Notes under the pieces: generated by a model
Seen by the model: only the letters and a program-made list of their open reading frames with translations
The model's database searches: none
Told to the model about the DNA's origin: nothing
Shown here: positions 3,454 to 58,804 of the stretch, piece after piece
Numbering within the stretch: position 1 is the first letter of the stretch
How the letters are laid out: the number at the start of each line of letters is the position of its first letter
Assembly (NCBI GenBank): GCA_021323655.1
Contig: JAJPKO010000055.1
Span: 1 to 64,000 of the forward strand
Length of the DNA stretch: 64,000 nucleotides
Direction: 5' to 3'
Origin: Acidobacteriaceae bacterium
GTDB lineage: Bacteria > Acidobacteriota > Terriglobia > Terriglobales > Acidobacteriaceae
Made by a program: the position numbers and the translations under genes

Positions 3454-4911
3454 GAAATGAAGAGCCTTCATCAATTCCTCTTTACGCGCTGTAAAGCTCC
3501 TGTCGTCACAATGGCCTGTGTTGGATTATTCGGAGTGCTCACTCTCAACGGATGCGGAGGAGGCACCGGCACCTCGAACCCGACTCCAACCCCAACACCG
3601 ACGCCTACAGCCAAAACGGTTGTACAGGTGAATATGGGCGACTCGCCCGCGGACTGGATGCTCGCCTTCACGATGAACATCAGTTCGATGTCGCTCACCG
3701 GAAGCAATGGATCTGCGACCGTCGTTTCGTCATCGACCCCGATGGAGATGATGCACCTGATGGGCATGATGCAGCCCCTTGCAATGGTTAACGCTCCGCA
3801 GGGAACCTACACCGGCGCGTCCATCACGATCTCATCGGCGACCGTCATGTACATGGATCCCACTACGAAGGCACCTGTTCAGGCCACAATCTCAGGTCCT
3901 ATGACCGGTAATATCTCCTTCACCAGCCCAATCACCGTAGGCTCGACTCCGATGGCCATGGGCTTCGATCTTGATCTGGCCAGTTCCGTGACGATGGGTA
4001 CGAACGGCAATCTAACCATGAATCCCGTCTTTCACGTCACATCCGGGACTCAGGGATCAGGAAATGCCATGGATCCGGCAAACGGCGGCATCCAGCAGAT
4101 GATGGGATCGATTTCGAGCGTGTCAGGAAACTCGTTCGTGATGACCTCGATGCAGGCCGCGCAGAACTTCACCTTCATGACGAATTCTTCGACAGTGTTC
4201 AGCGGTACGAGCATGAACTCGATGGCGAACGGGATGCTGGTCGTTGTCGATGCGAGCCTTCAGTCCGATGGTTCGCTGCTGTGCACCAGGGTCCAGTCCA
4301 TGATGAACTCCGGTGGCGTGATGGGCGGAGGAATCATCGCTGCTGTCACCGGGGCGCCAGCCACGTCTCTCACGATAATCATGCAGAATGGTGCCGGCAC
4401 CGGAATGATGTCGTCAGCCTTCGCGGCTGGGGTCACGGTCAGTCTGAGCGGTGGAACGAACTATCAGATTGACCAGGACAACATGGATATGGCCGGGCTC
4501 CCGTTCACGCCGGCTTTCGATCAAAACCACATCTACATCGGGCAGAGCGTGATGCCCATAAGTTCCAGCGGAATGATGAGCGGGGGCATGGGCGGCGGGA
4601 TGATGGGTGGCAGTTCCATGGCCGGTACAATTACGGCTTCGGAAGTGGAGTTGGAACCGCAGGGGCTCAGCGGAACCGCCGGCGCTGCAGTTTCGAGCGG
4701 AGCAACGACCAGCTTTACGCTGAATCTGCCTTCCGGCTGTGCATTCACCACGATGACCGGAGCCACGAGTGTGACAGTCTTCCAACAACCTCAGACGACG
4801 GTTGTCGGTACATCTCCGATCGCCAGTGGATCTTCAATGCATGCCTTCGGCCTGTTGTTCTACGACGGCGGGCAGTGGAAGATGGTGGCGTCGAGAATGG
4901 GAGCGAATTAG
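3454..4911 (+). CDS. Met-rich secreted lipoprotein, DUF4382/DUF5666-like
   Basis: Lipobox-like 'GVLTLNGCGGG', TP-repeat linker, Met-rich segments (MMSGGMGGGMMGGSSM); start set at ATG 3454. Confidence 0.6.
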   Translation, partial: EMKSLHQFLFTRCKAPVVTMACVGLFGVLTLNGCGGGTGTSNPTPTPTPTPTAKTVVQVNMGDSPADWMLAFTMNISSMSLTGSNGSATVVSSSTPMEMMHLMGMMQPLAMVNAPQGTYTGASITISSATVMYMDPTTKAPVQATISGPMTGNISFTSPITVGSTPMAMGFDLDLASSVTMGTNGNLTMNPVFHVTSGTQGSGNAMDPANGGIQQMMGSISSVSGNSFVMTSMQAAQNFTFMTNSSTVFSGTSMNSMANGMLVVVDASLQSDGSLLCTRVQSMMNSGGVMGGGIIAAVTGAPATSLTIIMQNGAGTGMMSSAFAAGVTVSLSGGTNYQIDQDNMDMAGLPFTPAFDQNHIYIGQSVMPISSSGMMSGGMGGGMMGGSSMAGTITASEVELEPQGLSGTAGAAVSSGATTSFTLNLPSGCAFTTMTGATSVTVFQQPQTTVVGTSPIASGSSMHAFGLLFYDGGQWKMVASRMGAN

Positions 4912-5935: not shown

Positions 5936-6141
5936 ATGACGCTTGGAGCAATCGTTGAATCCATACGGGCCGCTCTTGAACGGCAAGCCGACGATGTGCA
6001 GGTGCATCGGGAATCCGGCGAGACTTTCATCGAAATGTTCGTCGGCAAGCAATTGTTCGTGGTGAAGTGCTCGGAATCGGCTCCGATAAGGAGTCACTTG
6101 AATTCAGGCCCAAGCCAGTCATCGAGGAGCAGGAAGGATGA
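5936..6141 (+). pseudogene. Small protein, apparent frameshift near 6050-6075
   Basis: Frame A 'MTLGAIVESIRAALERQADDVQVHRESGETFIEMFVGKQ' then frame B 'VLGIGSDKESLEFRPKPVIEEQEG*', whose TGA overlaps the next ATG. Confidence 0.35.
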
Positions 6142-6305
6142 GCATTCTTCAACACAAGGCCCCAGTGTGCGGCGTGGAGATTGAAGCCGATCAAGCGGCT
6201 GGGGTGTCCGAATACCGCGGCAAGAAAGTGTATTTCTGTTCTCTGGCGTGCAAAGAGAAGTTCGACCGTGCACCCGAGCAATTTTCCAAAGACCTAGAGG
6301 GCTAA
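6138..6305 (+). CDS. YHS-domain protein (55 aa)
   Basis: MSILQHKAPVCGVEIEADQAAGVSEYRGKKVYFCSLACKEKFDRAPEQFSKDLEG; classic YHS pattern. Confidence 0.85.
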   Translation: MSILQHKAPVCGVEIEADQAAGVSEYRGKKVYFCSLACKEKFDRAPEQFSKDLEG

Positions 6306-7200: not shown

Positions 7201-9813
7201 ATGGGCTGCTGCGGAAATCAGCAAACTCTCACAAACGTCGGCGACAAGGATCCTGTCTGCGGAATGACCGTGGATCCGGCGAAAGCTGCCGGTCAGTCCG
7301 AATACCGGGGGACTACTTATTTCTTCTGTTCGACTCGGTGCAAGCAGAAATTCGATGACGCGCCGGAGCGGTTCATTGGTCCTTCGGCGGCATCGCGATC
7401 AGAAAAGGTTGAAATCGATCCCGTTTGCGGAATGCAGGTCAATCCGTCCAAGGCGACTGCGACTGCCGTTCACGATGGACAAACGTTCTATTTCTGCAGC
7501 CAGGGATGCGCGGCAAAGTTCAATGTAGATCCTCGGAAGTATCTGAATTCAAGCGAGGAACCGCAGGAAAAGCGGGCGCGAGGTAACTCATCAGCCGAGT
7601 ACACCTGTCCAATGCACCCGGAGGTGAGACAAGCCGGTCCCGGCAGTTGCCCCAAATGCGGGATGGCCCTGGAACCGACGACAATTTCAGCTCCGAAAGC
7701 CGGAACCGAATATACCTGCCCGATGCATCCGGAGATCGTCCGCTCCGAGCCGGGCTCCTGTCCTATCTGCGGAATGGCGCTCGAGCCCCGGGAGATCTCA
7801 GGTACAGAGTCCAATCCGGAGCTAGCTGACATGTCCAGGCGGTTCTGGATTAGTGTGGTTCTATCTCTTCCCGTGCTGGCTCTGATGGTGTCGGAATTGA
7901 TCCCGGGCATGCCGCTTCAGCACATGCTTCCGTGGCGAAGTTGGGCATGGATCGAACTTGCCTTGGCAAGCCCGGTCGTTCTTTGGTGCGGATGGCCGTT
8001 TTTCGAGCGGGCTTGGCAATCATTCGTTCATCGCAGCCCGAATATGTTCACTCTGATTGCACTCGGAACAGGCTCGGCGTATCTCTACAGTCTCGTTGCG
8101 GCCTTTGCGCCGCAGAGCTTTCCGGCTTCCTTCCGCAACGAAGGTGGCGAGATCGGACTCTATTTCGAGCCCGCGATGGTGATTACCGCTCTTGTGCTTC
8201 TTGGCCAGGTGATGGAGTTGCGGGCGCGTAGCCAGACCAGCAGCGCCATTCGTGCGTTGCTCGGACTCGCGCCGAAGATGGCCCGGCGGATCGATCAGCA
8301 GGGTGCGGAATCGGATATCCCGCTCGAGCAAGTGCAGGTGGGAGACAGGCTTCGAGTCCGCCCAGGTGAAAAGGTCCCAGTGGACGGAAGGGTATTGGAA
8401 GGACACAGTTCAGTCGATGAGTCCATGATCACCGGAGAACCGATTCCGATTGAGAAGGAGAAGAACTCCCGAGTGACAGCGGGAACCCTGAACGGTACCG
8501 GAGGGTTCGTGATGGGAGCCGAACGCGTGGGCTCTGATACGCTGCTCTCCCAAATCGTCAAGATGGTGAGCGAGGCTCAACGTTCCCGCGCACCGATTCA
8601 GCGGCTCGCAGACAAGGTCTCTTCCTACTTCGTTCCCGCCGTCATTCTGATTGCGATCATCACCTTCATTGTCTGGTATCTGGCTGGGCCGCAACCCAGA
8701 TTTGCGCATGCTCTGGTCAACGCAGTCGCAGTACTGATCGTGGCATGTCCGTGTGCTCTGGGCCTTGCTACTCCCATGGCTGTGATGGTCGGTACCGGAC
8801 GCGGCGCTCACGCAGGAATCCTCATTCGTAATGCCGAAGCGCTGGAAGTATTCGGCACGGTCAATACGCTCATCGTGGACAAAACGGGAACCCTTACGGA
8901 AGGCAAGCCCCGGCTGAGTTCCGTGTTCAGTGTTTCGACCTATGGTGAATCGGAGTTGTTGCAGATTGTGGCCAGCCTGGAACGGGCAAGCGAACATCCG
9001 CTGGCGCGATCGATCGCTGATGCGGCCGAAGAAAGGAAGCTAGAGTTTCTTTCTATCGACAACTTCAGTTCGCTCACAGGAAGGGGCGTACGGGGCACAG
9101 TCGCGGGGAAAGAAACAGCGGTCGGCAATCTCGATCTATTCCGCGAACTGAAAATCGATTCCTCCCCATTGAGCACAAAAGCCGAGGAACTGCGCGCGCA
9201 AGGCCATACCGTGATTCTCGCCGCTGTCGAGGGAAAATCGGCCGGTCTGGTCGCAGTCTCTGATCCCATCAAGGAGACAACGCCCGAAGCCATTCGCGGA
9301 CTAAAACGAGCCGGTATCAATGTCGTGATGGTGACCGGCGACCATGCGACCACAGCCAAGGCAGTCGCCGAGCAATTGGAAATCGAATTTGAGGCCGGAG
9401 TGCTGCCGGAGCGGAAAGCCGAAGTCGTAAAGGCCCATCAATCGTCTGGAGCAATCGTTGCGATGGCCGGCGATGGCGTGAACGATGCGCCAGCACTTGC
9501 GCAAGCCAATGTCGGTATAGCGATGGGAACTGGAACAGATGTTGCGATGGAGGCAGGCGGAATTACCCTGATTAAGGGAGACTTGCGTGGAATCGTGCGA
9601 GCACGGCACCTAAGTATTGCGACGATGCAAAACATCCGCCAAAACCTGTTCTTTGCGTTCGTCTACAACGCAATTGGTGTACCGGTTGCGGCTGGTGCCC
9701 TATTCCCCACGCTTGGACTGCTTCTGAATCCGATGATTGCCGCGGCGGCGATGAGTTTTAGTTCCGTTTCAGTGATCGCCAATGCGTTAAGGCTGCGAGC
9801 TATAGAGCTTTAA
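7201..9813 (+). CDS. copA: Copper-translocating P1B-type ATPase with two N-terminal YHS domains and two heavy-metal-binding (HMBD) domains
   Basis: [14 protein letters not shown] motif '[22 protein letters not shown]', 'HPLARSI', '[20 protein letters not shown]'; N-terminal YHS x2 and 'YTCPMHPE...CPxCGMALEP' x2. Confidence 0.95.
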
Positions 9814-14642: not shown

Positions 14643-14992
14643 ACACGCAGGCATTCATGGAAACCGAGACCAGGAGAGAGACGTGCACGCGCTCGGAACT
14701 GGTTTTCGCAACACTCGTTCATGTTCCCAACCGCTATCGTCTTTGCCAGTTGACGGCCAAAGGAGCACGTAAACTCCACAAGCCGAATGAGCGGATGCAG
14801 GATACGGTGAACGAAGTCCTGATGATTTTCGACGGTTCGAGCACGGCAGTTTCGGTTCCGAGCGCGCCTCAGCTGATCCCGGAGTCATCATTGCATCCTG
14901 TGTTCCAAGCCAGTCACCTCCCAGATGCAACACCCCTTGTTCTGAGCCAGACAACATTCATGCGGGAAGAGAGGAATTACAGCCATGTTTAG
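14639..14992 (+). CDS. RNA polymerase omega/Rpb6-like small protein
   Basis: 'ELVFATLVHVPNRYRLCQLTAKGARKLHKPNERMQDTVNEVL' resembles the RpoZ/Rpb6 NRxxL...AKxARxL core. Confidence 0.45.
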   Translation: MNTQAFMETETRRETCTRSELVFATLVHVPNRYRLCQLTAKGARKLHKPNERMQDTVNEVLMIFDGSSTAVSVPSAPQLIPESSLHPVFQASHLPDATPLVLSQTTFMREERNYSHV

Positions 14993-16430
14993 GTCTCCGA
15001 AGAAAATCGTCGCACTCGTTCTACTCATCGCGGCGCTGGTGGTTGTCTATATGGGAGCCACTCATCGGTGGTTCGGTTTCGCATCCACTCAGGACGCCGG
15101 CGGACAGAAGGTCCTCTACTGGTATGACGCAATGAATCCGCAGCACCACTACAACAAGCCGGGCAAAGCCCCCGATGGCATGGACCTTCTGCCGCAATAC
15201 GCGGAGCAGACGGCGTCACCCGCGGCCCCCCCGTCGACCTTGCCGCTTACGGACATGGCCAACATGCCGGGCATGTCGACGAAGGGCGGTGAGCGGAAGG
15301 TCCTCTATTGGTACGACCCGATGCATCCCGCTTACAAATCAGACAAGCCGGGGACTGCTCCCGACTGCGGGATGACACTGGTTCCGAAGTATGCCGACGA
15401 CGAAAACATGGCCAAGATGCCCATGGGGACTGTGACGATATCAGCCGAAAAGCAGGTAATGGCGGGCGTGCGCACTGCGATTGTCGATCGCAAGCCGCTG
15501 GTTCGGGACATTCGCACCACGGCACAAATCGTTGCGGACGAGACGAAAATCGCCCATGTCCATGTGAAAGTATCTGGCTACGTCGAGAAGGTTTATGTGG
15601 ACTACGTTGGGCAACTGGTCAAGAAAGGGGAGCCGCTCTTCAGTCTTTATAGCCCCGACCTGGTTTCAACCGAAGAGGAATATCTCATCGCCAAGCGGGG
15701 CAACGCTACACTCGGAAGCGCTCCTTTCCAGGACGTCAGTGCGGGCGCAAAATCTCTGCTCGCATCTACGTTGCAACGCTTGAGCCTGTGGGACATTTCA
15801 GACGAGCAGATACGCCAGATCGATCTTTCGGGGAAGGTCAGCAGAGATCTCACCTTTTATTCGCCGGTAACCGGTTTTGTAACGGACCGCAAGGCGTTTC
15901 CTCAGGCCTCCGTAACTCCCGACACCGAACTCTACACGGTTTCGGACCTGTCTACCGTTTGGGCGAACGCGGATATCTACGAATACGAAGTTCCCTACGT
16001 GCATCTTGGCCAACGTGTTTCCTTCTCTTTGAGTTACTACCCTGGGAAGACCTACACGGGGAAGATTTCGTACATCTATCCGACAGTCGATTCACAGTCT
16101 CGAACCGTCAAAGTCCGCATCGAAATCCCCAACCCCGGCTTCGAATTAAAACCGCAGATGTTCGCCGACGCGCAACTCCGGATCGATTACGGCACGAAGA
16201 TCCTGATTCCGCAAGAGGCGGTACTCGACTCGGGCACGGAACAGCAGGTTTTTGTGGTGCACCCCGGTGGCATGTTTGAACCTCGAAAGGTCACCCTTGG
16301 CCCGGTCGTCGATGGAAATGTTGCGGTACTCACTGGGCTGAAGGTCGGCGAAACCGTAGTTGTGTCCGGAAACTTCCTTATCGACTCCGAGAGCAGGCTC
16401 AAGAACGCGATGAGCGGAATGCAACACTGA
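14985..16430 (+). CDS. cusB: CusB-type RND periplasmic adaptor with two N-terminal HMBD-like motifs (first one degenerate)
   Basis: 'KVLYWYDPMHPAYKSDKPGTAPDCGMTLVPKYAD', 'VSGYVEKVYVDYVGQLVKKGEPLFSLYSPDLVSTEEEYL'. Confidence 0.9.
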   Translation: MFRSPKKIVALVLLIAALVVVYMGATHRWFGFASTQDAGGQKVLYWYDAMNPQHHYNKPGKAPDGMDLLPQYAEQTASPAAPPSTLPLTDMANMPGMSTKGGERKVLYWYDPMHPAYKSDKPGTAPDCGMTLVPKYADDENMAKMPMGTVTISAEKQVMAGVRTAIVDRKPLVRDIRTTAQIVADETKIAHVHVKVSGYVEKVYVDYVGQLVKKGEPLFSLYSPDLVSTEEEYLIAKRGNATLGSAPFQDVSAGAKSLLASTLQRLSLWDISDEQIRQIDLSGKVSRDLTFYSPVTGFVTDRKAFPQASVTPDTELYTVSDLSTVWANADIYEYEVPYVHLGQRVSFSLSYYPGKTYTGKISYIYPTVDSQSRTVKVRIEIPNPGFELKPQMFADAQLRIDYGTKILIPQEAVLDSGTEQQVFVVHPGGMFEPRKVTLGPVVDGNVAVLTGLKVGETVVVSGNFLIDSESRLKNAMSGMQH

Positions 16431-16441
16431 GGAGAATGATT

Positions 16442-16936
16442 ATGAACGCTCGACGCATCGCCATAATAGGCATTCTGATCCTTGTAGCCGGCGCCGCGGG
16501 CTACGGCTGGTTCAGGTTTGTCGCGCACCCTAAACAAGTCGCATGCGGCTATTGCCTGCGGCCGCTGCATGCCAACTTGATGGTGACAGCCGAGATTGAC
16601 GGCAAGAGCGCACAGGTCTGCTGCCCTCGCTGCGCCATCACGGAAGCAAATCAGCAGCGGAAGTCTCTTCGATTGATCACGGTGCACGACTATCGCACCG
16701 GCAAGGCCATATCCCCGGAAACTGCCTGGTTCGTGGAAGGCAGCCGGGCTATGGCCTGCGATCACGATGCGATGCGCATGAATGAAATGAAAGGAACTGA
16801 GGAGCTTGCATTTGATCGATGCTCACCGGGGATCTTCACGTTCGGCGACAAGCAAGAAGCGGTTGCATTCACTCAAGCGAATGGTGGAGCCGTTATTTCC
16901 TTCGGGCAGTTGATGAGTGAGGCGAAATTCCAATGA
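16442..16936 (+). CDS. NosL-like copper-binding protein (putative)
   Basis: TM anchor, 'CGYCLRPLH', 'HDYRTGKAISPETAWFVEGSRAMACDHDAMRM', 'FTFGDKQEAVAFTQANGGAVISFGQL'. Confidence 0.55.
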   Translation: MNARRIAIIGILILVAGAAGYGWFRFVAHPKQVACGYCLRPLHANLMVTAEIDGKSAQVCCPRCAITEANQQRKSLRLITVHDYRTGKAISPETAWFVEGSRAMACDHDAMRMNEMKGTEELAFDRCSPGIFTFGDKQEAVAFTQANGGAVISFGQLMSEAKFQ

Positions 16937-19900
16937 TGAACAAGATTATCGACTTCAGTGATAAAAACCGGTTCCTGATCTTCCTCTTCGTTGCGGTGGC
17001 CATCGTGCTCGGATGGACCGCGATGAGGAACACGAAGCTCGACGCAATTCCCGATCTCTCGGACACCCAGGTGATCGTCTATGCGAAGTGGGACCGCAGC
17101 CCCGACATCATGGAGGATCAGGTTTCCTATCCGATCGCCTCCGCACTGCTCGGATTGCCAAAGGTCAAGGATATTCGCGCCTTCTCCGATTTCGGCTACT
17201 CGTATATCTACATCATCTTCGACGAAGGTACGGACATTTATTGGGCACGTTCCCGGACGCTTGAATACCTGAATTCCGTCACTCCACGGTTGCCCAAAGG
17301 AGTCAATGTCGAATTGGCGAAGGACGTGACCTCCGTCGGTTGGGTCTATCAGTACGCCCTTGTCGATACGACAGGGCAGCACAGTATCGAGGAACTGCGC
17401 TCCTACCAGGACTGGTATCTCCGCTACGCATTGCAGACCGTGCCCGGCGTCGCCGAAGTCGCGCCAATCGGCGGCTTCGTGCGCCAGTACCAAGTCAATG
17501 TCGATCCGAACAAGCTTCTTGCCTACAAGGTCCCGATCAACGCGGTCAGCGACGCCGTACAGAAGTCCAACAACGACGTCGGGGGGCGATTGGTTGAATT
17601 TACCGGCCGCGAGTACATGGTCCGTGGGCGCGGATATATCCGTTCCCTCGAAGATATCGGCAAGACAGTGATCATGTATAACGCGCAAACCGGAACTCCG
17701 GTGCTGGTCCGCGATGTGGCCACAGTAACCTTTGGCCCGGAAATACGGAGAGGCGCAGGTGAACTGGACGGTAAGGGAGAAGCTGTTGGCGGTGTCGTCA
17801 TCATGCGCTACGGAGAAAACGCGCAGAAGGTGATCGAACGCACCAAGGAGAAACTGAACGACCTGAAGTCCACTCTGCCTCCTGGCGTCAAACTTGTCAC
17901 TACTTACGACCGCTCCGAATTGATTGACCGGGCAGTCGAAAACCTCCGGCATACCTTGATCGAAGAACTGGTCATTGTAAGCGTAGTGATCATGATCTTC
18001 CTGTGGGATCTTCGTAGCGCCATTGTTCCGATTATTACCATCCCTGTCACCGTGATTCTGGCCTTCATGCCCATGCAATGGATGGGGATGACCGCGAACA
18101 TTATGTCGCTGGGTGGCATTGCCGTCGCTATCGGCGCACTGGTGGATGCATCCGTAGTCATGGTCGAACAGACCCACAAGAAGCTCGAACACTGGGAAGC
18201 GGAAGGCCGGCCTGGTCCATCGCATGCCGTTGTGATTGCGGCAGTGAAGGAGGTCGGAGGGCCGAGCTTCTTCGCACTGTTGGTGATCGCGGTCGGCTTC
18301 CTCCCCGTCTTCACCCTGGAGGGACAGGAAGGCCGCCTTTTCAAACCATTGGCGTTCACCAAGAACTTCTCCATGGCGATTGCAGCATTGCTGGCGATCA
18401 CGTTGGCGCCGGCGGCCATGCGCTTCATCTTCTCGCGGATGGACGGGTTCAACTTCCGTCCTAAATGGCTTGCAAACATCGTCAACGCGCTCTTTGTTGG
18501 AAAGATCCACAGCGAGGAAAACCATCCGATCAGCAAGCCAATGATGAAGGTCTATCATCCGGTGGTCGAGTTTGTTCTCGATCACAAATGGCTGACCATC
18601 GGATTCGCTCTTCTCGTGATGGCGTTGAGCGTTCCCGTTTACTTCAAACTCGGATCGGAGTTCATGCCGCCTCTCGATGAAGGCACTCTTCTTTACATGC
18701 CATCGACATTGCCTGGCATCTCTGTAACGGAAGCAACTCGTGTGCTCGAAATGCAGGACAAGATGATTCGCGCCTTCCCAGAGGTCGACCGGGTTTGGGG
18801 AAAAGCAGGCCGTGCTGAGAGTTCAACCGATCCAGCTCCCTATTCCATGATGGAAACCACGATCGTTCTGAAGCCACAGGATCAATGGCCGAAAATCGAC
18901 CGCTGGTACTCGAAGTCAATGCCACAGTGGTCTCAGTCGGTTCTACGAAGATTCTGGCCGGATCACCTAACCACGCAGGAATTGATCTATGGTCCCGGAG
19001 GGTTGAATGAGGCTCTCCAGTTGCCTGGGATCTCAAATGCCTGGACCATGCCCATCAAGGCTCGCACCGACATGCTCACCACTGGCATTCGTACGCCGCT
19101 CGGCATCAAGGTGCTCGGCGCCGATCTCGGGCAGATTCAGCAGGTCGGAGAGCAGATCGAGACGGCACTGAAGGACGTTCCCGGAACCACGAGCGTCTTT
19201 GCGGAAAGAACGAGCGGCGGCTACTTCCTCGACTTCGACCTGAAGCGGGATGAACTGGCTCGTTATGGGTTGACCATCGACGACGCGGAAAACGTGCTGA
19301 TGTCGGCCGTGGGGGGCGAGCCTGTCTCTACGACCGTCGAGGGCCGCGAGCGGTATCCGGTTAACGTGCGTTATCTGCGGGATTACCGCAGCGATGTCGA
19401 TGCACTTCAACGCGTGCTGGTGGCAACGCCCTCCGGTGCGCAGATTCCGCTCGGCCAGATTGCCGATATACGCATGAAGACCGGCCCTGGCATGATCCGC
19501 GACGAAAACGGAAGGCTCAGCGGCTACGTTTACGTCGATGTATCGGGGCGTGATATTGGCGGCTATGTGCGCGACGCGAAGAAGGCGGTTGCGGATAAGG
19601 TCAAAATACCTGCCGGTTACGAGCTTGTGTGGAGCGGGCAGTACGAGTTCATGGAGCGCGTAGCGCAACGTCTGAAATTCGTCGTTCCCATTACGCTCTT
19701 CATCGTCTTCCTGCTGCTCTATTTCAACACCGGCTCGGCGATCAAAACCATGATCATTCTGCTGGCGGTGCCCTTCTCAGCCATCGGCGCGATCTGGTTC
19801 CTATACCTGCTGCATTACAACATGAGTATCGCTGTGTGGGTGGGCCTCATCGCGCTGCTCGGAGTCGATGCCGAGACGGCTGTCTTTATGCTTCTCTACC

Positions 19901-20241
19901 TGGATCTTGCTTACCACGACGCGCTAAAGACGGGCGGCATACACTCATGGGACGATCTGCGCGAAGCGATCGTTCACGGAGCGGTCAAGCGACTTCGCCC
20001 CAAAGTGATGACCGTTTCGTGCATGCTCTTTGGACTGCTGCCCATCATGTGGTCTGCCGGAACCGGGGCCGATGTGATGAAGCGCATCGCAGCTCCAATG
20101 CTTGGCGGCATCATCACTTCGTTCTTCATGGAACTGGTCGTTTACCCTCCGATCTTTGGGATCTGGAAGTGGAACTGGGAGGTGAAGCCCGCGCTGAAGC
20201 GTGAAGCGGCCGCCCAGACCGCCGAGGCCACCCATGCATAG
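16933..20241 (+). CDS. cusA: CusA-type heavy-metal RND efflux pump
   Basis: 1102 aa; '[28 protein letters not shown]', '[18 protein letters not shown]', '[26 protein letters not shown]'. Confidence 0.95.
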
Positions 20242-38764: not shown

Positions 38765-39955
38765 GTGCGGGAATCGGCAGGAATCTGCTTCTACCGCTCT
38801 CGAGGTCCTGAATGGCATCCCGCGTGCAGTGCTAAAATCGCGCTCGTGAGGACATCGGCAAAAGACTGGCAGCGCGCGGCAATTCTGGCAGCGGCAATCG
38901 CGGCCGTGGCGTTGCTGCACTACCACACACCGGTAAGCCACGTATGGATCCACCCACTGTTACAGCGGGCATATTACATTCCGGTTTTGCTTGCAGCCTT
39001 ATGGTTTGGCTGGAAGGGTGGCTTAGCAGCGGCAACTCTGGCGGGAGCCTCCTATATTCCGCACATTATGATGGCGTGGAATTTCGAGCCTCAATACAAA
39101 GCCGCCCAATACATTGAGATCGGAATGTTTTTTGCGATTGCGGCTCTCACCGGCGTGCTGGCAGATCACGAGCGCGCTCAGCGGCATAGGGTCGAGGAGA
39201 CTGCTCGCCGGCTGAGCGAGGTGTATACGCAATTGCAAAAGTCATTCGAGCAACTCCGTCGCGCAGACCGCATGTCCGCGTTAGGGGAGCTGTCGGCAGG
39301 ACTCGCACACGAGGTTAGGAACCCGCTCGGGTCCATCGAGGGCGCAGTCCAAATCTTGGGACGCCGCGATCTGGAAGAGAATACGCGTCAGGAATTCACG
39401 GAGATGGCCTCGCGAGAGGTCGTGCGGCTAAAGGGGCTGCTTACTCACTTCCTCGAATTCGCGCGGCCACAACAGCCGCGCGTCGTCGCGTCGGACATGG
39501 AGTTGTTGCTTCACTCGGTGGCAAAGCTGGCAAGTGAAACAGCAAAGATGGCACAGGTCGAGATCCTGGTTGAGTCAGAGTCAACTTTGCCCCAAGTACC
39601 GATTGACCCGGAACAGATCAGGCAAGTGCTCCTGAACCTTGTCATCAATGCGGTGCAGGCTATGCCGAATGCCGGCCAGATCCGATTGCGTGCAACTCAT
39701 GAGGGAGAGAATATTCGCATCGAGATTGAGGACCAAGGTGTTGGCATCCCTGCGGATGACGTGGAAAGGATCTTCGACCCGTTCTTTACGACTCGCGACA
39801 ACGGAACAGGACTTGGCCTTTCGATTGCTTACCAAATTGTGAGCCAGCACGGCGGGCATATCGCCGCAAAGAGGAACCCGGAACGCGGCATGACGTTCAC
39901 AGTGACACTGCCATTGGCGGCGAGCGCTGCTGAGCCGACTCTCGCAAGGAGCTAA
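38765..39955 (+). CDS. NtrB-type membrane sensor histidine kinase
   Basis: N-terminal TM segments; H-box 'LSAGLAHEVRNPLGSI', N-box 'VLLNLVINAVQAMP', 'GVGIPADDVERIFDPFFTTRDNGTGLGLSI'; alternative GTG start at 38846. Confidence 0.9.
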   Translation: MRESAGICFYRSRGPEWHPACSAKIALVRTSAKDWQRAAILAAAIAAVALLHYHTPVSHVWIHPLLQRAYYIPVLLAALWFGWKGGLAAATLAGASYIPHIMMAWNFEPQYKAAQYIEIGMFFAIAALTGVLADHERAQRHRVEETARRLSEVYTQLQKSFEQLRRADRMSALGELSAGLAHEVRNPLGSIEGAVQILGRRDLEENTRQEFTEMASREVVRLKGLLTHFLEFARPQQPRVVASDMELLLHSVAKLASETAKMAQVEILVESESTLPQVPIDPEQIRQVLLNLVINAVQAMPNAGQIRLRATHEGENIRIEIEDQGVGIPADDVERIFDPFFTTRDNGTGLGLSIAYQIVSQHGGHIAAKRNPERGMTFTVTLPLAASAAEPTLARS

Positions 39956-41368
39956 ATGGCGAACGAATTGATTCTCGTGGTCGACGATGACGCCAGCCAG
40001 CGGCGGCTGGTTGAGTTCTGGCTGAAGGAAGCGGGGTACACCGTCGTCACGGCACCGGATGGCCGGGCCGGTCTCCTGACGTTTACGGAAAAAAACCCCG
40101 CACTCGTGATTGCTGACATCCGCATGCCTGGGCTCAGCGGCCTCGATTTGCTTGGCCGCATCAAGGCCCTGAACGCGGATACGCCCGTCATTCTGATCAC
40201 CGCCTTCGGCACCGTCGGTGATGCCGTGGATGCAATGAAACTGGGTGCGGCCGACTACGTCCTCAAACCGCTCAATGCGGACGAACTCAAAGTCAACGTT
40301 CAGCGCGCCCTGGAACACCGGCAGTTGGTGGACGAGAACCGCTATCTTCGCGATTTCAGCGATACGGCGTTCCGGTTTGAAAACCTGGTGGCCGGCTCAA
40401 AAAGGATGCGCGACGTCTTCAATCTCGCGGCACATGTCGCGCGCCGCGATTCCACGGTTCTCGTTACCGGAGAATCCGGCACAGGCAAGGAACTGATCGC
40501 GAAGGCCATTCACCAGAACAGCCTTCGTGTTTCGAAGCCGTTCATCACGGTGAACTGCGGGGCCATTCCCGAGAGCTTGATTGAATCGGAGCTGTTCGGC
40601 CACCGCAAGGGATCGTTCACTGGCGCCGTCGCCGATCGCGTGGGTAAATTCGAAGCCGCAAACGAAGGCACGGTTTTTCTCGATGAGGTGGGAGAGCTTC
40701 CTATCAATCTTCAGGTGCGCCTGCTGCGCGTGATTCAAGAGCGCGAGATCGATAAGATTGGCTTTCCGAAGCCGATAGCCGTAAATGTGCGCATCATTGC
40801 GGCGACGAACCGGGACTTGCGCACGCAGATTGAGGACGGCCAATTCCGAGAGGACCTCTTTTATCGTTTGAGTGTGGTGACCGTGGAACTGCCGCCCTTA
40901 CGCGAGCGGCGGGATGATGTTCCCCTGCTGCTGACTCACTTTCTGAAGAAGCACTGTTCTCGGTATCAGCTGCCTTTACCATCGATCAGCGACGGCGCGC
41001 TGGAAATCTTGACTCGCTATGACTGGCCGGGAAACGTCCGGGAGTTGGAGAATGTCGTCGAGCATGCGGTTGTGCTTGGCGCTTCAGAAACGATCCGAAC
41101 CGAAGATTTGCCGGCCCACATGCGAAATGCAACATCCCGGATCAGCTCCATCAGCCTCAAGTTGCCCGACGAGGGGATCGACCTTGAGGGAGTGGAGAAG
41201 GAGATCCTGTTGCAGGCTCTTGAGAAGAACCAGTGGAATCAGACACGGACTGCGCGGTATCTGAACATCAGCAGGAAGACGCTTATTTATAGGATGGAGA
41301 AGTTCTCTCTCATACCGACGGCATCCTCCAAACCGCAGGTCGACGAAGAGGGTGAGCACGTCTCCTGA
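39956..41368 (+). CDS. NtrC-family sigma-54-dependent response regulator
   Basis: Receiver 'LVVDDDASQRR...ADIRMPGLSGLDLL'; AAA+ 'GESGTGKELIAKAIH'; GAFTGA 'HRKGSFTGAVADRVGKFE'; Fis-type HTH 'QTRTARYLNISRKTLIYRMEKF'. Confidence 0.95.
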   Translation: MANELILVVDDDASQRRLVEFWLKEAGYTVVTAPDGRAGLLTFTEKNPALVIADIRMPGLSGLDLLGRIKALNADTPVILITAFGTVGDAVDAMKLGAADYVLKPLNADELKVNVQRALEHRQLVDENRYLRDFSDTAFRFENLVAGSKRMRDVFNLAAHVARRDSTVLVTGESGTGKELIAKAIHQNSLRVSKPFITVNCGAIPESLIESELFGHRKGSFTGAVADRVGKFEAANEGTVFLDEVGELPINLQVRLLRVIQEREIDKIGFPKPIAVNVRIIAATNRDLRTQIEDGQFREDLFYRLSVVTVELPPLRERRDDVPLLLTHFLKKHCSRYQLPLPSISDGALEILTRYDWPGNVRELENVVEHAVVLGASETIRTEDLPAHMRNATSRISSISLKLPDEGIDLEGVEKEILLQALEKNQWNQTRTARYLNISRKTLIYRMEKFSLIPTASSKPQVDEEGEHVS

Positions 41369-43678: not shown

Positions 43679-43843
43679 AACTGCGGGTAAGTGACATCTC
43701 AGTCCGCACCAGGTCAGCAGCGAGGTTGCTTGATTGCGCGGGTTGCAAGGGGAAGAGATTCCACCCGCGTCACCACAACGGAAGAGGGTTGTAGACATCA
43801 GGGACAAAGATCCATTTCAGTTTCATTTGGAAAGGGGAAGGTT

Positions 43844-44026
43844 ATGGCAAAGGGTTCGGTTTTGAAAGCGGAAGCACCCGAAACGGCAATTGCTGCCACT
43901 CCGTCGGAAGAACTCGAGGCACGCATTCGGCAGCGAGCCCATGAATTGTACGAGGCCCGCGGCGGGGAAGACGGTCACGATATCGAGGACTGGCTTCAAG
44001 CTGAGGCAGAAATCAACGCCGGCTAG
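43844..44026 (+). CDS. DUF2934-like small protein
   Basis: 'LEARIRQRAHELYEARGGEDGHDIEDWLQAEAEI'. Confidence 0.75.
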   Translation: MAKGSVLKAEAPETAIAATPSEELEARIRQRAHELYEARGGEDGHDIEDWLQAEAEINAG

Positions 44027-44173: not shown

Positions 44174-45154
44174 ATGAGGGTCATAAAACGGATTGCAGTT
44201 CTCACTTCCGGCGGGGATGCGCCGGGCATGAACTCGGCCATCCGCGCGGTAACACGCTGCGCGCTGGCTCAGGAATGGGATGTTCTTGGGGTGCGGCGTG
44301 GTTACGCAGGTCTGGTCGAAGACGAAGTCGAGCCCCTCACCGGCCGCTCGGTCAGCAACATCATGCAGTGCGGCGGGACCGTGCTCGGCAGCGCGCGATG
44401 CCCGGAGTTCGAGGCAGAACCTACCCGCCGCCAGGCGCTCCGTAACCTCCAACAAAATCGGATCGACGCGCTGGTTGTGATTGGTGGCAACGGATCGCAG
44501 ACTGGCGCTTTGGCTCTTGCCGAGATGGGCCTGCCAGTCGTGGGTGTGGCTTCGACGATCGACAATGATTTGGCCGGAAGCGAGGTCACGATCGGTGTAG
44601 ATACCGCGTTGAACATTGCTCTCGAAGCAATTGATCGTCTTAAGACCACTGCATCATCGCATCAACGCGCGTTTTTGGTTGAAGTGATGGGCCGCAAGTG
44701 CGGTTACCTGGCTTTAATGGCGGGACTCGCCGGAGGCGCCGAGATCGTCGTGATTCCGGAAAGAGAAACTTCACCGGCAGAAGTGGCCCGTCAACTGCGC
44801 GCGGCGTACGAGCGAGGCAAGCGGCACGCATTGGCTGTTGTTGCCGAAGGTGCGCTTTATGATGCCGCCAAACTCGATGCGTGGTTCCGCGAACATGCCG
44901 GGCAGGTGGGCTTCGATACGCGCACCACCACGCTGGGGCACGTGCAGCGCGGCGGCACGCCCACGGCCTTCGACAGGCTGCTGGGCGCTCGCCTCGGTGC
45001 GGGAGCGGTGGCGGCGCTGACGCGAGGGGAGCAGGGAGTTCTTGTGGGCCTCAACGAGGGCAAGGTCACGACAACGCCCTTAACCGAGGTAGTCGGCGTT
45101 CCGAAGATTGTCGATCCGGAGCTATTCCGGCTGGCTTCCGTTCTGGAGAAGTGA
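44174..45154 (+). CDS. pfkA: 6-phosphofructokinase
   Basis: 'VLTSGGDAPGMNSAIRA', 'GGNGSQTGA', 'STIDNDLAGSEVTIGVDTALN', 'GHVQRGGTPTAFDR'. Confidence 0.9.
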   Translation: MRVIKRIAVLTSGGDAPGMNSAIRAVTRCALAQEWDVLGVRRGYAGLVEDEVEPLTGRSVSNIMQCGGTVLGSARCPEFEAEPTRRQALRNLQQNRIDALVVIGGNGSQTGALALAEMGLPVVGVASTIDNDLAGSEVTIGVDTALNIALEAIDRLKTTASSHQRAFLVEVMGRKCGYLALMAGLAGGAEIVVIPERETSPAEVARQLRAAYERGKRHALAVVAEGALYDAAKLDAWFREHAGQVGFDTRTTTLGHVQRGGTPTAFDRLLGARLGAGAVAALTRGEQGVLVGLNEGKVTTTPLTEVVGVPKIVDPELFRLASVLEK

Positions 45155-47022
45155 TGAGCAGCCCAGGCGGGCAAGAAAGGCTTGATATGAGCAGCGTGCA
45201 AAAAGATCCCGTTTGCGGCATGGTGGCATCGCCTGAAACAGGATTGTCGCTGGTTTATGAGGGGCAAACGATCGGCTTCTGTTCCGAGTATTGCAGGGAG
45301 AAATTCCAGCAGAACCCGCGTCGCTACCTGGCCAGCGTCATTCACGTGGATGACGACGCAAAAGAAGGCCGGCGCATTGCGTATTTCACAATGGAGGTTG
45401 CTCTCGATCGGGATATTCCAACGTACTCTGGCGGCCTCGGCGTTCTGGCAGGAGACATGCTCCGGGCGTGCGCGGACCTTCATGTGCCCGTGGTCGGAGT
45501 CAGCATGTTGTGGCGCAAGGGATACTTCGAGCAAGTCCTTGATTCCACCGGGCGGCAGCGGGAGCTGCCGGTCAACTTCAAACCGGGATTGCCTTTACGG
45601 CCTCTCGCTCCGCACGTGGAGGTTTCGATTGAGGGACGCCCGGTCTGGGTTCGTGCCTGGCAGTACGCTCTCGGAGATGCGGACTTCACGCTTCCCGTCA
45701 TTCTTCTGGACACCGACGTAGAGCAGAACAGCGAATACGACCGGAGCCTTACGGATCACCTCTACGGGGGTGACCAGCGATACCGGCTGGCGCAGGAGGC
45801 GATCCTTGGCATCGGCGGTGTGCGAATGCTCCAGACATTGGGTTACTGCGGAATCCAGCGCTACCACATGAACGAGGGTCATGCCAGTCTGCTGGTTCTG
45901 GAATTGCTGAACTGGCAGGGGGGAACAGAGCCTGTTGATTGGGACTTCGAAGATGTCCGGCAACGATGCATCTTTACAACGCACACTCCCGTTCCCGCGG
46001 GCCATGACCAGTTCGATTGGCAGTCTGTGCAACGAGTTGCCGGACCGATGGTTTCAGCGGACGTGCTCCGCATGCTGGGCGGGCAGGAGAAGCTCAACAT
46101 GACACTGCTCGGACTCAACCTCAGCCGGTATGTGAATGGCGTCGCCCAGCGGCACGAAGAGGTATCGCGAGAAATGTTTCCCGGCTATCCCATTCACCAC
46201 ATCACCAACGGCGTGCATTCTGCAACGTGGACTTGTGAAAGCTTCCAGCGGCTCTATGACGAATACATACCCGACTGGCGCAGGGATCCGGCCATGCTCC
46301 GGAAGGCGCTGAATATTCCAAACGAAAAGATAGCGGCCGCCCACGCGGAGGCTAAGGCAAGGATGTTCACTTTCGTGAAGGAGAGAACGGGCCGCACCCT
46401 GTCCGACGAAGCGCTAACCCTAGGATTCGCACGTAGAGCAACGGCATACAAACACGCCGGCCTAGTCTTTACGGATCCAGCGCGTCTCGTTCAGATTGCA
46501 AAAACCGCCGGTCCGTTGCAGTTTGTTTTTGCGGGAAAGGCGCACCCGCAGGACGAGGGAGGCAAACGGGAAATCGAGCATATCGTTAGGTTCGCGCGAG
46601 AGATCGGAGAGGACATTCCAGTTGTGTACCTCGAAAACTACGACCTCGCGATGGCAAAGCTGTTGGTATCAGGAACTGATTTGTGGCTCAATACACCGCA
46701 GCGTCCCATGGAAGCTTCCGGGACTTCGGGCATGAAGGCGGCGCACAATGGAGTTCCCAGCTTCAGTACTCTGGACGGCTGGTGGATAGAAGGCCACATT
46801 GAAGACGTGACCGGCTGGTCGATCGGTTCCTCCGCCTCATCTGACCCGGAGAGAGATGCCGAGGCTCTGCTGAACAAACTCGAAGAGGTCATTCTGCCAG
46901 CGTTTCATCACAATCGTGAGCATTGGATGGACGTCATGCGCCACGCGATTGCGCTGAACGCGTCATACTTCAATACGCACCGAATGGTGCAGCAATACGT
47001 TACCAACGCCTATCTCGGATAG
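45154..47022 (+). CDS. glgP: Alpha-glucan/glycogen phosphorylase with N-terminal YHS metal-binding domain
   Basis: YHS 'KDPVCGMVASPETGLSLVYEGQTIGFCSEYCREKFQQNPRRYL' continuous with 'YFTMEVALDRDIPTYSGGLGVLAGDMLRACADL' ... 'RPMEASGTSGMKAAHNGVPSFSTLDGWW'; start 45154 or 45187. Confidence 0.9.
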   Translation: MSSPGGQERLDMSSVQKDPVCGMVASPETGLSLVYEGQTIGFCSEYCREKFQQNPRRYLASVIHVDDDAKEGRRIAYFTMEVALDRDIPTYSGGLGVLAGDMLRACADLHVPVVGVSMLWRKGYFEQVLDSTGRQRELPVNFKPGLPLRPLAPHVEVSIEGRPVWVRAWQYALGDADFTLPVILLDTDVEQNSEYDRSLTDHLYGGDQRYRLAQEAILGIGGVRMLQTLGYCGIQRYHMNEGHASLLVLELLNWQGGTEPVDWDFEDVRQRCIFTTHTPVPAGHDQFDWQSVQRVAGPMVSADVLRMLGGQEKLNMTLLGLNLSRYVNGVAQRHEEVSREMFPGYPIHHITNGVHSATWTCESFQRLYDEYIPDWRRDPAMLRKALNIPNEKIAAAHAEAKARMFTFVKERTGRTLSDEALTLGFARRATAYKHAGLVFTDPARLVQIAKTAGPLQFVFAGKAHPQDEGGKREIEHIVRFAREIGEDIPVVYLENYDLAMAKLLVSGTDLWLNTPQRPMEASGTSGMKAAHNGVPSFSTLDGWWIEGHIEDVTGWSIGSSASSDPERDAEALLNKLEEVILPAFHHNREHWMDVMRHAIALNASYFNTHRMVQQYVTNAYLG

Positions 47023-47151: not shown

Positions 47152-49200
47152 ATGCACGACTGGTTTGCGCTCGAAGGATCTCCATCTCCACTCGGGGTTA
47201 CATGGATCGAGGACGAGGCAGCATACAACTTTGCCCTTTATTCAAGGCATGCAACCGCAGTCACGCTGTTGCTCTATTCCGAGATCGACCTCGCGACGCC
47301 AACTTATGAACACCGGCTCAATCCTCTCCTCAATAAGTCGGGCCGAATCTGGCATTGCCGGCTGCGGAAAAGTTCAATTCCAGACGCTCGGTACTACGCA
47401 TATCAAGTCGCCGGGCCCAAGACAGTAGAAGAGGGGCACCGTTTCGACGCACGCAAGGTCTTGCTCGATCCTTACGCGCGCTGTGTGTGCTTCCCAACGC
47501 GGTTCAGCCGTGCGGCTGCATCGAGCCCCGGTTCGAACGCCGGCAGGGCCCCTCTTGGACTCATAACGAGCGGACCGCGCGGTAAATGGGCCGAAGATCG
47601 AGGTCATGCGCATACCTCCGATCTCGTCATCTACGAGTTGCATGTGCGCGGCTTCACCAAAAGGGAGAACTCGGGCGTTCCGATGCCTCACCGCGGCACC
47701 TTCCTTGGAGTGGTCGAAAAGATTCCTTATTTGAAGGAACTGGGTATCACGGCGGTGGAGCTGCTTCCGGTCATGCAGCAGGACCCGCAGGAAGGAAGCT
47801 ACTGGGGCTACATGCCCTTGAACTTCTTTTCCCCCCATCATGAATACGCCAGCGCCGGCAAGCCCTTCGATGCACTGAACGAATTCCGAATGATGGTACG
47901 AGCCCTGCATGAGGCTGGAATTGAAGTGTTACTGGATGTGGTGTACAACCACACCGCTGAAGGGAATGAAGAAGGCCCGACTTACAGCTATCGCGGCATC
48001 GACAACACGACCTATTACCTTCTCGAACCGGATCGGTGCCGTTATCGGAATGACAGCGGCACGGGCAATACTCTCAACTGCGCCAACCCCTATGTGCGCA
48101 AGATGATCCTGGACAGCATGCGGTTCTGGAGGGAACAAATGCGCGTGGATGGTTTTCGCTTCGACCTAGCCTCCATCTTCACGCGGAACGAGGACGGGAC
48201 CATCAACCTCTCTGACCCGCCTGTGATCGCGGAAATAGGCGCCAGCCCGGAACTGGAGAATCTGCGCTTAATTGCGGAGGCGTGGGATCCAGCCACCTAC
48301 CAGTTGGGCCAAGGTTTTCCCGGGATTTCGTGGCTGCAATGGAACGGCCAGTTCCGCGACGATGTGCGCGCCTTTTTGCGCGGCGACGCGGATATGGTTC
48401 CGAAGCTGATGTCGCGTATCTACGGAAGCTGCGACATCTTTCCCGACGATCTCGCGAACTCCTATCGGCCCTACCAGAGCGTAAATTTCGTGACCTGTCA
48501 TGATGGGTTCTGCCTGTATGATCTTGTTTCCTACGGCCGGAAACACAATGAGGCCAACGGTCACGGCAACACAGACGGAACCGATTGCAACCTAAGCTGG
48601 AACTGTGGCTGGGAGGGTGATGTTGGAGCGCCAGCCTCTGTGCTCGAGGTGCGCAGACAACAAGTGAAGAATTTCTGCACACTGCTGTTCCTGTCGAATG
48701 GCACGCCAATGTTCTGTGCCGGGGATGAATTTATGAATACCCAGCGAGGGAACAACAATCCCTACAACCAGGACAACGAGACCACCTGGCTGAACTGGGA
48801 TCTGCTTGACCAAAACCGGGACATATTCCGCTTCTTCAGTAGCATGATCGCTTTCCGCAAAAGCCATCCCTCCATCTCCCGCAGCCGGTACTGGCGCGAT
48901 GACATCCGCTGGTATGGAACTTCAGGTGGTCCTGATCTTGGCCAGGATTCACGTTGCTTGGCATACTTTCTCGATGGCGCGGTCCTCAACGACGCGGACA
49001 TTTATGTCATGATCAACGGCTCTCCGGACCCAGTTGCATTTATCGTGCAGGAGGGCCATCCGGGGGAATGGCGCCGCGTGATCGACACCAGCCTGCCGTC
49101 GCCAAATGACATCTGCGATCCCGGAACCGAGTTCCGTTTATCGGACTCCGGATACGTCCTAAAATCCAGGTCTATTGTCGTTCTTATTCGTCGACAATGA
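47152..49200 (+). CDS. glgX: Glycogen debranching enzyme (isoamylase/GlgX family)
   Basis: 'DVVYNHTAEGNEEGPTYSYRGIDNTTYYLLEPD', 'GFRFDLASIFTRNEDG', 'VNFVTCHDGFCLYDLVSY'. Confidence 0.92.
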   Translation: MHDWFALEGSPSPLGVTWIEDEAAYNFALYSRHATAVTLLLYSEIDLATPTYEHRLNPLLNKSGRIWHCRLRKSSIPDARYYAYQVAGPKTVEEGHRFDARKVLLDPYARCVCFPTRFSRAAASSPGSNAGRAPLGLITSGPRGKWAEDRGHAHTSDLVIYELHVRGFTKRENSGVPMPHRGTFLGVVEKIPYLKELGITAVELLPVMQQDPQEGSYWGYMPLNFFSPHHEYASAGKPFDALNEFRMMVRALHEAGIEVLLDVVYNHTAEGNEEGPTYSYRGIDNTTYYLLEPDRCRYRNDSGTGNTLNCANPYVRKMILDSMRFWREQMRVDGFRFDLASIFTRNEDGTINLSDPPVIAEIGASPELENLRLIAEAWDPATYQLGQGFPGISWLQWNGQFRDDVRAFLRGDADMVPKLMSRIYGSCDIFPDDLANSYRPYQSVNFVTCHDGFCLYDLVSYGRKHNEANGHGNTDGTDCNLSWNCGWEGDVGAPASVLEVRRQQVKNFCTLLFLSNGTPMFCAGDEFMNTQRGNNNPYNQDNETTWLNWDLLDQNRDIFRFFSSMIAFRKSHPSISRSRYWRDDIRWYGTSGGPDLGQDSRCLAYFLDGAVLNDADIYVMINGSPDPVAFIVQEGHPGEWRRVIDTSLPSPNDICDPGTEFRLSDSGYVLKSRSIVVLIRRQ

Positions 49201-49830: not shown

Positions 49831-49926
49831 CTCAATCTCCTCACTTCGCATTTCACCGGGTTGTCAGGCGTATTTCGCCTCGGCACTTTCCATGTCCACC
49901 CTTTCACCCGATGGGGAGTTGTTCTC

Positions 49927-51411
49927 ATGAGCAGTCGACGAACCTTCATTCAAAAGGCGCTGGGGCTTGGCGCCAGCGTGTTTGCTACTTCAAAGCTATC
50001 GGCCGAAACGTCGGGCCGGCCAGCCTCGCGCATCGCTCGGAGCAACAACCGAAATCGAGACGCGGCCTTCAATATGCCTGTCGTGACCACCGATATTGGC
50101 GATCTGCCGTTCACGATGGACGGAAACGTCAAAGTTTTTCGGCTCGTCGCGGAGGTCGTAAGGCAGCAGATCAATCCGATGAAGTCCATCGATGTTTGGG
50201 GCTTCAATGGCAGCGCGCCGGGACCGACCATTCAAGTGAACCAGGGCGATCGAGTCCGCGTGGTCTTCGAGAACCATTTGCCCGAGCCAACCTCGCTTCA
50301 TTGGCACGGCTTCGAAGACACGATCCCAAACGACGGAATGCCGGGCATCAGCCAGCCGCCGGTCAAGCCCGGTGGCCGCTTTGTCTATGAATTCGACATC
50401 CATCAGGAGGGCACCTACTTCTACCACTCGCACATGGCAATGCAAGAGATGGCGGGCATGCTCGGCGGTTTCATCATGCACCCCAAGGAGCCGTATCGCC
50501 CGCATTGCGACAAGGACTTCCTGATTCATTTACAGGAATACGCGGTCCTGCCCAGCAACACCGTTCCCAACACCATGAACATGGAGTTCAACTGGTTGTT
50601 GTTTAACGGTAAAGCCGGCCCGGCCACCACGCCTCTGATTGTGAGGTTGGGTGATCGCGTGCGCGTTCGCTTCGTAAACCTGGGTATGGATCACCATCCA
50701 ATGCACCTGCATGGGCACACGTTCTATGTGACGGGAACGGAGGGCGGGCGTATTCCGGAAGGCGCCTGGTGGCCTGGCAACACCGTGCTTGTCGGCGTGG
50801 CGCAAGCCCGGGCAGTCGAGTTTGTGGCCAACAATCCCGGCGACTGGATGCTGCACTGCCACCTGCCGCACCACATGATGAACCAGATGTCTTCGGTTGC
50901 CGGAAAGATGACGCGTTCGATGGGTATGCCCGCGGGAGGCGATATGAACACCGGCATGGGGATGCTGCAGGGCGAACCTGGCGCTCCTCTCGGTGAGGAC
51001 TATGGCCCCACGCTCGGCCGCGGTCTTGGCGGGGTCGGGAACACGACGGATACCTCAACCACGAATGGCCCTCTCTCGCAACAGAAGGCGATGGACGCAA
51101 TGCCTGGCATGCAGCACGACATGGGCAACATGCAGATGGACCAGATGTCGCCGGACGACATCGCAAAGAATGCGAACGACGTCCCAAACTTTCCGCAGGA
51201 CGCTTACATGGAAGGGCCAATGATGGCAATGGATGGCGCCGTTGAACGGCCCGAGAATTATGGCCTGAATGCGGGCTGGAGCGGGTTCATGCAGGGAATG
51301 ATGACCTTTGTCCGCGTGCTGCCGCCCGACAAATACGACGAAGTGATTTCGCGCATGAAGAAAGCCAACCGTCCGCATGATCCCTATACTGCCATTCTGG
51401 AGCGTGCCTAA
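49927..51411 (+). CDS. Multicopper oxidase (Tat-like signal, Met-rich C-terminal segment)
   Basis: 'LHWHGF', 'YFYHSHMAMQEMAGM', 'HHPMHLHGHTF', 'WMLHCHLPHHMMNQM'; MPGMQHDMGNMQMDQM insert. Confidence 0.92.
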   Translation: MSSRRTFIQKALGLGASVFATSKLSAETSGRPASRIARSNNRNRDAAFNMPVVTTDIGDLPFTMDGNVKVFRLVAEVVRQQINPMKSIDVWGFNGSAPGPTIQVNQGDRVRVVFENHLPEPTSLHWHGFEDTIPNDGMPGISQPPVKPGGRFVYEFDIHQEGTYFYHSHMAMQEMAGMLGGFIMHPKEPYRPHCDKDFLIHLQEYAVLPSNTVPNTMNMEFNWLLFNGKAGPATTPLIVRLGDRVRVRFVNLGMDHHPMHLHGHTFYVTGTEGGRIPEGAWWPGNTVLVGVAQARAVEFVANNPGDWMLHCHLPHHMMNQMSSVAGKMTRSMGMPAGGDMNTGMGMLQGEPGAPLGEDYGPTLGRGLGGVGNTTDTSTTNGPLSQQKAMDAMPGMQHDMGNMQMDQMSPDDIAKNANDVPNFPQDAYMEGPMMAMDGAVERPENYGLNAGWSGFMQGMMTFVRVLPPDKYDEVISRMKKANRPHDPYTAILERA

Positions 51412-58013: not shown

Positions 58014-58319
58014 AACGAGGGAGGCGACGAATTTGGACCAACATTTGACGAGAACTAGCCCATGATGCCCAAGATGGCCCGGCTCGGGATGTGATTCACA
58101 TCACCGGCGCTTCGCCCCTTGTATCTAGACGGTTTCTGCGATTAGGCGCTGTAAATCCGGGATGCACAAGAATGTCCCGCGCAAAATGCTCGGCAGCAGG
58201 CAAAGGCCGGGCTCGTCTGACTTGCCGATCGCAGCGACCTCCAAAGCCATCGTGTCTTACTGGGATCTGTGCGATTGCAGTTTTCTTTCGAAGATATAGA
58301 GGTTGTCGACGCAAATTTG

Positions 58320-58672
58320 GAATTCATCATGGATTGCACTCTCGTCGCCATCAAGGAGCCATCGGACTGGAGGCCGGCATCCACGATCACGAGTATCCCA
58401 TTCGCCATCGCGCTCATGCTCGTGCCATCGAAAACCGTGGAAGAGTTGGTCATGAACGTGAAGGTCTGGGCCGCCAGCATCGAGGTCATCGTGAAGGAAC
58501 TGCCTGACACGCTGGCGACTGATCCCATCATCTGTTGGATTCCGCCGTTTGCCGGATCCATGGCATTTCCTGATCCCTGAGTCCCGGATGTGACGTGAAA
58601 GACGGGATTCATGGTTAGATTGCCGTTCGTACCCATCGTTACTGAACTGGCTAGATTGAGATCGAAGTCCAT
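58320..58672 (-). pseudogene. Truncated duplicate of the 3454-4911 lipoprotein gene
   Basis: 'MDFDLNLASSVTMGTNGNLTMNPVFHVTSGTQGSGNAMDPANGGIQQMMGSVASVSGSSF...ATRVQSMMNS' is nearly identical to the product of about 3958-4312. Confidence 0.85.
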
Positions 58673-58804
58673 GGCGATATTGCCCGAAGGGTTGTAAAGG
58701 TTGCCCAACGAACGACAAAGGAATCGAACGAATAGACTGCCGCTTTTAAAGGGCCAGTAAAGCAACGGGAGCGAGGAATTTGATCTGCATGTGAACGGAC
58801 TCCT

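Follow-up and report, generated by a model that had tools for sequence, protein, structure and literature searches.

The locus

The window (the whole stretch of 64,000 nucleotides that was analysed) carries on its forward strand an open frame, 45154-47022, in which a YHS domain at the N-terminus is followed in-frame by a full-length alpha-glucan phosphorylase. The gene belongs to a cluster for copper resistance in a soil bacterium (Table 1). An initial annotation had already read the frame as a fusion, and the profile matches bear this out: PF04945 (YHS) scores 40.7 bits against a cut-off of 30.3 at residues 17-59 (counted from 45154), and TIGR02094 scores 546 bits (cut-off 191.7) at residues 75-621 of the same count, spanning profile positions 1-599 of 600.

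Table 1. Features of the window that are referred to in the text
Feature	Coordinates	Strand	Evidence and remarks
Standalone YHS protein	6138..6305	+	PF04945, 47.7 bits
CopA copper P-type ATPase, two N-terminal YHS domains	7201..9813	+	TIGR01511, 604.5 bits
CusB/CusA-like heavy-metal RND efflux genes	14985..20241	+	named from sequence
Sensor kinase and sigma-54 response regulator (ZraS/AtoS-, ZraR/AtoC-like), upstream	38765..41368	+	NCBIfam
DUF2934 small protein, upstream of phosphofructokinase	43841..44026	+	PF11154, 48.5 bits
ATP-dependent 6-phosphofructokinase (PFK)	44174..45154	+	TIGR02482, 378.5 bits (cut-off 371.35); 32 bases upstream of the fusion gene
YHS-alpha-glucan phosphorylase gene	45187..47022	+	611 aa; start moved from 45154; Pfam and NCBIfam profiles exceed their cut-offs
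YHS domain, residues 6-48; candidate metal ligands D7, C10, C32, C36	45202..45330	+	PF04945, above cut-off
Linker between YHS and phosphorylase domains	45331..45369	+	variable, low identity; poorly predicted
Alpha-glucan phosphorylase domain, residues 62-611	45370..47019	+	TIGR02094, 546 bits; phosphorylase fold, Z 33.5
EASGTSGMKAAHNG motif with pyridoxal-phosphate lysine K517	46711..46752	+	aligns with plant phosphorylase EASGTSNMK
GlgX-like glycogen debranching enzyme	47152..49200	+	TIGR02100, 611 bits, just under cut-off 641
Multicopper oxidase, downstream of GlgX	49861..51411	+	TIGR01480, 153 bits, below cut-off

The start assigned at 45154 has to be moved. In every close relative that was compared, an ATG lies 5 codons before KDPVCGM; since the relatives all share that position and AAAGG precedes the corresponding ATG of the window at 45187 (MSSVQKDPVCGM), the latter is most likely the true start. 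The correction leaves the YHS domain within a 611-residue protein. Its codons are, moreover, under purifying selection: for pairs with estimable dS, dN/dS of the YHS segment is 0.05-0.27 (0.053 for Aulosira versus Nostoc, 0.19 between two cyanobacterial plasmid copies, and 0.057 for the window gene versus its closest relative, G439, a pair with dS near saturation). The YHS segment is therefore translated, and translation beginning after it is ruled out. A chance frame or mis-start is ruled out by the conserved ATG, by purifying selection and by conservation across phyla, and a one-off fusion or assembly error by the occurrence of relatives across six bacterial phyla. The fusion is genuine; it is translated and has been conserved.

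The gene lies, as first described, between those of PFK and GlgX, the one ending at 45154 and the other beginning at 47152; PFK and the YHS-phosphorylase probably share an operon. The GlgX-like protein also has Pfam CBM48 and alpha-amylase matches. The genome yields four YHS matches, all of them inside the window, at 6153-6284, 7246-7380, 7414-7548 and in the fusion gene, which confirms the description of an island with the same domain in a standalone gene (at 6138) and, in two copies, in CopA. The standalone copy has no aspartate at the ligand position (the alignment gives KAPVCG there), whereas the other three keep it. Proteins encoded at 3364-4911 and 58142-58765, at opposite ends of the metal region, share the stretch SSVTMGTNGNLTMNPVFHVTSGTQGSGNAMDPANGGIQQMMGS; the second looks truncated.

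The phosphorylase domain

What was at first named a glycogen phosphorylase is a short enzyme of the TIGR02094 alpha-glucan phosphorylase family and not one of the classical GlgP/MalP type, the profile of which (TIGR02093) gives 85.8 bits, under its cut-off of 552.9. The motif around the pyridoxal-phosphate lysine (EASGTSGMK) and the phosphate-site motif (RRxxxYK) are both intact. K517 is invariant across 39 sequences, and it, R416, R417, K422 and H266 are all invariant and align with plant phosphorylases. The predicted fold resembles that of solved glycogen phosphorylases (545 residues aligned with 9l6i at the Z score of Table 1). The structural match to classical phosphorylases starts near residue 55 of the model, which corresponds to about residue 70 of the human enzyme. 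In eukaryotic phosphorylases the N-terminal segment carries control, and it is the place of that segment that the YHS domain therefore occupies.

N-terminal extensions are found elsewhere in the family: the DUF3417-type alpha-glucan phosphorylases (of Thermococcus, and long forms encountered here) also have one, but theirs is DUF3417, longer, and not YHS. The YHS-less TIGR02094 phosphorylases, among them a paralogue in the window's own genome (G000:C50:5643-7304), are 46-60% identical in the catalytic domain and have the same catalytic motifs, but they have no YHS domain and less often have metal efflux genes nearby. The pairing of YHS with a glycogen or alpha-glucan phosphorylase was not found in the openly accessible literature, and the architecture is apparently undescribed so far, though both families are known.

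The YHS domain and its precedent

The fusion's YHS domain has the ligand pattern D-x2-C ... C-x3-C. The four candidate ligands, Asp7, Cys10, Cys32 and Cys36, are invariant in 17 of the 17 bacterial homologues aligned, from six phyla, while most other YHS positions vary among the same 17 sequences. (In the larger alignment of 44 phosphorylases, 20 are labelled fused and Pfam calls YHS in 19.) An archaeal homologue from a Euryarchaeota MAG (L087 10004-11761) keeps a YHS-like segment from which every metal-binding cysteine is gone (KDPLSGS...YFDSETH).

Our literature search turned up a single characterised enzyme in which a YHS domain is regulatory: in this adenylyl cyclase of Mycobacterium phlei, micromolar copper activates the full-length enzyme but not the catalytic domain alone, with D178, C181, C204 and C208 as proposed ligands (PMC4626032). 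Like the fused phosphorylase, it is an enzyme with one YHS domain, the same pattern of an aspartate and three cysteines, and a short linker, and it is a proposed copper sensor. It differs in that its YHS domain is C-terminal, in that its catalytic domain is a cyclase, and in that it produces a signal and mobilises no reserve. Copper activation was measured in the cyclase; the YHS-phosphorylase shares with it only the ligand pattern. From this one enzyme (PMC4626032) and from genomic context we infer a metal-dependent regulation of the phosphorylase.

The YHS domain may have the small fold of the TRASH/L24e type. Its AlphaFold model has a pLDDT of 80. Its best Foldseek match is the YHS region of toluene monooxygenase (probability 0.99 but E 0.18, over 29 columns), and L24-like proteins match more weakly. 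Linker residues 50-57 fall below pLDDT 50, and because of that low confidence the model defines no contact between the YHS domain and the catalytic core. The low-confidence linker would also suit a YHS domain that is a structural zinc site or a module for stability or assembly, holding its metal permanently on an ordinary phosphorylase that happens to reside in a stress island: ribosomal L24e and the toluene/phenol hydroxylases also contain YHS/TRASH-like domains, and no sensing is known there (PMC4626032). We consider this rather unlikely, given that the YHS-less relatives, including the paralogue in the same genome, are full-length phosphorylases and that, as described next, a metal context is enriched for the fused form.

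Metal-resistance neighbourhoods

Neighbourhoods were scored for a strict set of markers within 10 kb: P1B ATPases with a metal motif, CusA, CusB, multicopper oxidases and four-helix copper proteins. Such markers lie near 14 of 20 bacterial YHS loci and near 9 of 53 YHS-less loci (Fisher p 3e-5, a value that overstates the evidence because the loci are related and their flanks differ in length; the difference itself is large). The YHS-less control loci were chosen by similarity to the fused enzyme and thus represent the nearest neighbourhood, not a random draw. (A looser marker count, 12/14 versus 16/55, was replaced, since its marks confused related pumps.) Some fusion loci are without nearby metal genes.

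CusB/CusA homologues adjoin other YHS-phosphorylases as well, and the sensor kinase/sigma-54 regulator pair recurs near the homologues in G016 and G028. GlgX is near the fusion gene at five of the six acidobacterial loci from the genome search (the window, G016, G028, G006 and G439), and PFK is present at the window, G439 and Blastocatellia loci. In Nitrospira (L030 7966-8838), a second, truncated YHS-phosphorylase N-terminus lies ~1.5 kb upstream of the complete gene; a different frame at the 3' end of this fragment resembles the C-terminus of CusA, an arrangement that has the look of a recombination scar.

The recurrence of the domain in one island invites other readings. The YHS-CopA copper ATPases have the same small N-terminal domain as the phosphorylase and lie in the same island, but they are membrane pumps, and the function of their two YHS copies is putative. 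That company, the strict conservation of the thiol ligands and the repression of housekeeping glgP by copper in Synechocystis (PMC4182526) would fit a YHS domain acting as a metal trap or protective lid that spares the enzyme from copper, or as a cytosolic copper buffer, with no allosteric control. This seems unlikely to us: one site per 611 residues makes a poor sink, and the island already has a small standalone YHS protein. A targeting role, suggested at the outset, would have the YHS domain serve solely to dock the enzyme, through protein contact, onto CopA or some other partner with a YHS domain. It can appeal to the YHS domains of CopA and the standalone gene, and to three proteobacterial loci (L085, L105, L073) at which small standalone YHS genes lie 0.4-1.5 kb from YHS-less phosphorylases, so that the pairing also occurs as neighbouring genes. 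No evidence for targeting of glycogen breakdown was found, neither a contact surface nor a co-fusion, and it is not obvious why a soluble phosphorylase should be placed at a pump; we regard the idea as most improbable.

Distribution and origins

Full-length bacterial fusions were found in Acidobacteriota, Cyanobacteriota, Nitrospirota, Planctomycetota (anammox bacteria and Gemmata), Omnitrophota and Myxococcota, and archaeal ones in Bathyarchaeota, Borrarchaeota and one euryarchaeote. The fusion is rare. In evenly drawn genome samples, and with the seeds included, it is present in 3 of 396 Acidobacteriota, 1 of 292 Cyanobacteriota and 3 of 198 Nitrospirota genomes, that is, in about 1% or fewer. 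In Acidobacteriota a clear score gap separates fused proteins (199-215 bits) from the rest (97 bits or less). Two observations on particular genomes may be added: a Borrarchaeum (G456, contigs C89 and C78) has two phosphorylases for which the match extends into the YHS segment, and a contig titled Bordetella parapertussis (L055, CALQCC020000020.1) has a phosphorylase that equals that of the acidobacterial G054 in every statistic seen, its bin name being probably wrong.

Four of the cyanobacterial fusion copies are plasmid-borne, three of them on plasmids that are typed as conjugative and that also carry copper genes. Leptolyngbya boryana and Stanieria, both culturable, are among the hosts of such fusion-bearing plasmids. 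Carriage by phage was considered and dropped, the only match in a viral contig having no phosphorylase match. Thirteen of the 15 bacterial fusion genomes checked have a separate, YHS-less phosphorylase in addition, which marks the fused one as an accessory enzyme next to a housekeeping one.

In a tree built on the catalytic domain alone, the bacterial fusions cluster together (support 91/81), with one YHS-less member among them, and the archaeal fusions make up a second group (support 100/99), nested among YHS-less enzymes. The YHS-less member comes from a Clostridia MAG (L040 3335-4993) and has a pyruvate-kinase-like gene directly upstream. The AU test on a quick tree rejects a clade that unites all the fusions (p 1e-114), and the careful tree, too, requires two separate YHS groups. 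The archaeal linker is much shorter than the bacterial one. With a joint clade rejected, the pairing of YHS and phosphorylase probably arose at least twice, two fusions being the simplest reading of the sequences; one ancient gain followed by many losses is less parsimonious. In the window genome, the YHS-less paralogue groups with ordinary acidobacterial enzymes and the fused enzyme with those of other phyla. Plasmids, second phosphorylases and tree placement together point to the YHS-phosphorylase as an accessory gene that has moved horizontally.

A proposed role

Phosphorylases, a textbook case of allostery, respond to AMP, glucose and phosphorylation. The reading that we favour, with a probability of about 0.5, is that a transition metal, most probably copper, bound to the N-terminal YHS domain gates the activity of the fused protein, an accessory alpha-glucan phosphorylase. 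Under metal stress, the YHS domain would bind metal at D7, C10, C32 and C36. Acting through the short linker, which meets the catalytic core at its N-terminal edge, the metal-bound domain would then turn the enzyme on, or up, and the activated phosphorylase would free glucose-1-phosphate from glucan with no ATP spent. With the adjacent GlgX and PFK, the product would feed glycolysis and so pay for metal efflux and repair. The link to metal drawn in the initial annotation gains from conservation across phyla, from the invariance of the candidate ligands, from the enrichment of copper and heavy-metal efflux genes and from the second, archaeal origin. What counts against metal gating is the membership of a YHS-less enzyme in the bacterial clade, the loss of the cysteines in the archaeal L087 protein, the low-confidence linker, the fusion loci that have no metal genes nearby, and the fact that the precedent is a different enzyme with its YHS domain at the other end.

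We prefer activation to inhibition, since the enzyme is an additional copy found in the company of resistance genes. The opposite sign, metal switching the enzyme off and sparing glucan stores for as long as metal is present, is served equally well by the same anatomy, and in Synechocystis the transcripts of housekeeping glgP and glgX do fall at high copper (PMC4182526). But an additional phosphorylase would serve no purpose among metal-resistance genes if metal were to shut it down, and the only characterised YHS enzyme found is activated (PMC4626032); we hold an off-switch to be very unlikely. For activation by metal, the Synechocystis observation can be turned around: where copper lowers glgP and glgX expression (PMC4182526), a separately controlled, metal-tolerant phosphorylase would have its use.

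Significance

The structural facts are firm, and the regulatory claim stands at about even odds. The recurrence of the fusion in scattered bacteria and archaea suggests that some cells couple the mobilisation of their sugar reserves to toxic metal. A broader proposition is that direct allosteric control of glucan breakdown by a toxic metal has evolved at least twice, through fusion of a metal-sensor domain to a phosphorylase, and that the bacterial form crosses phyla in the company of metal-resistance clusters; to this we would give a little less than an even chance. Metal gating, if true, would add a new kind of input to the control of a central enzyme, and it would explain why carbohydrate genes (for phosphorylase, GlgX, PFK and phosphoketolase) travel in heavy-metal resistance islands.
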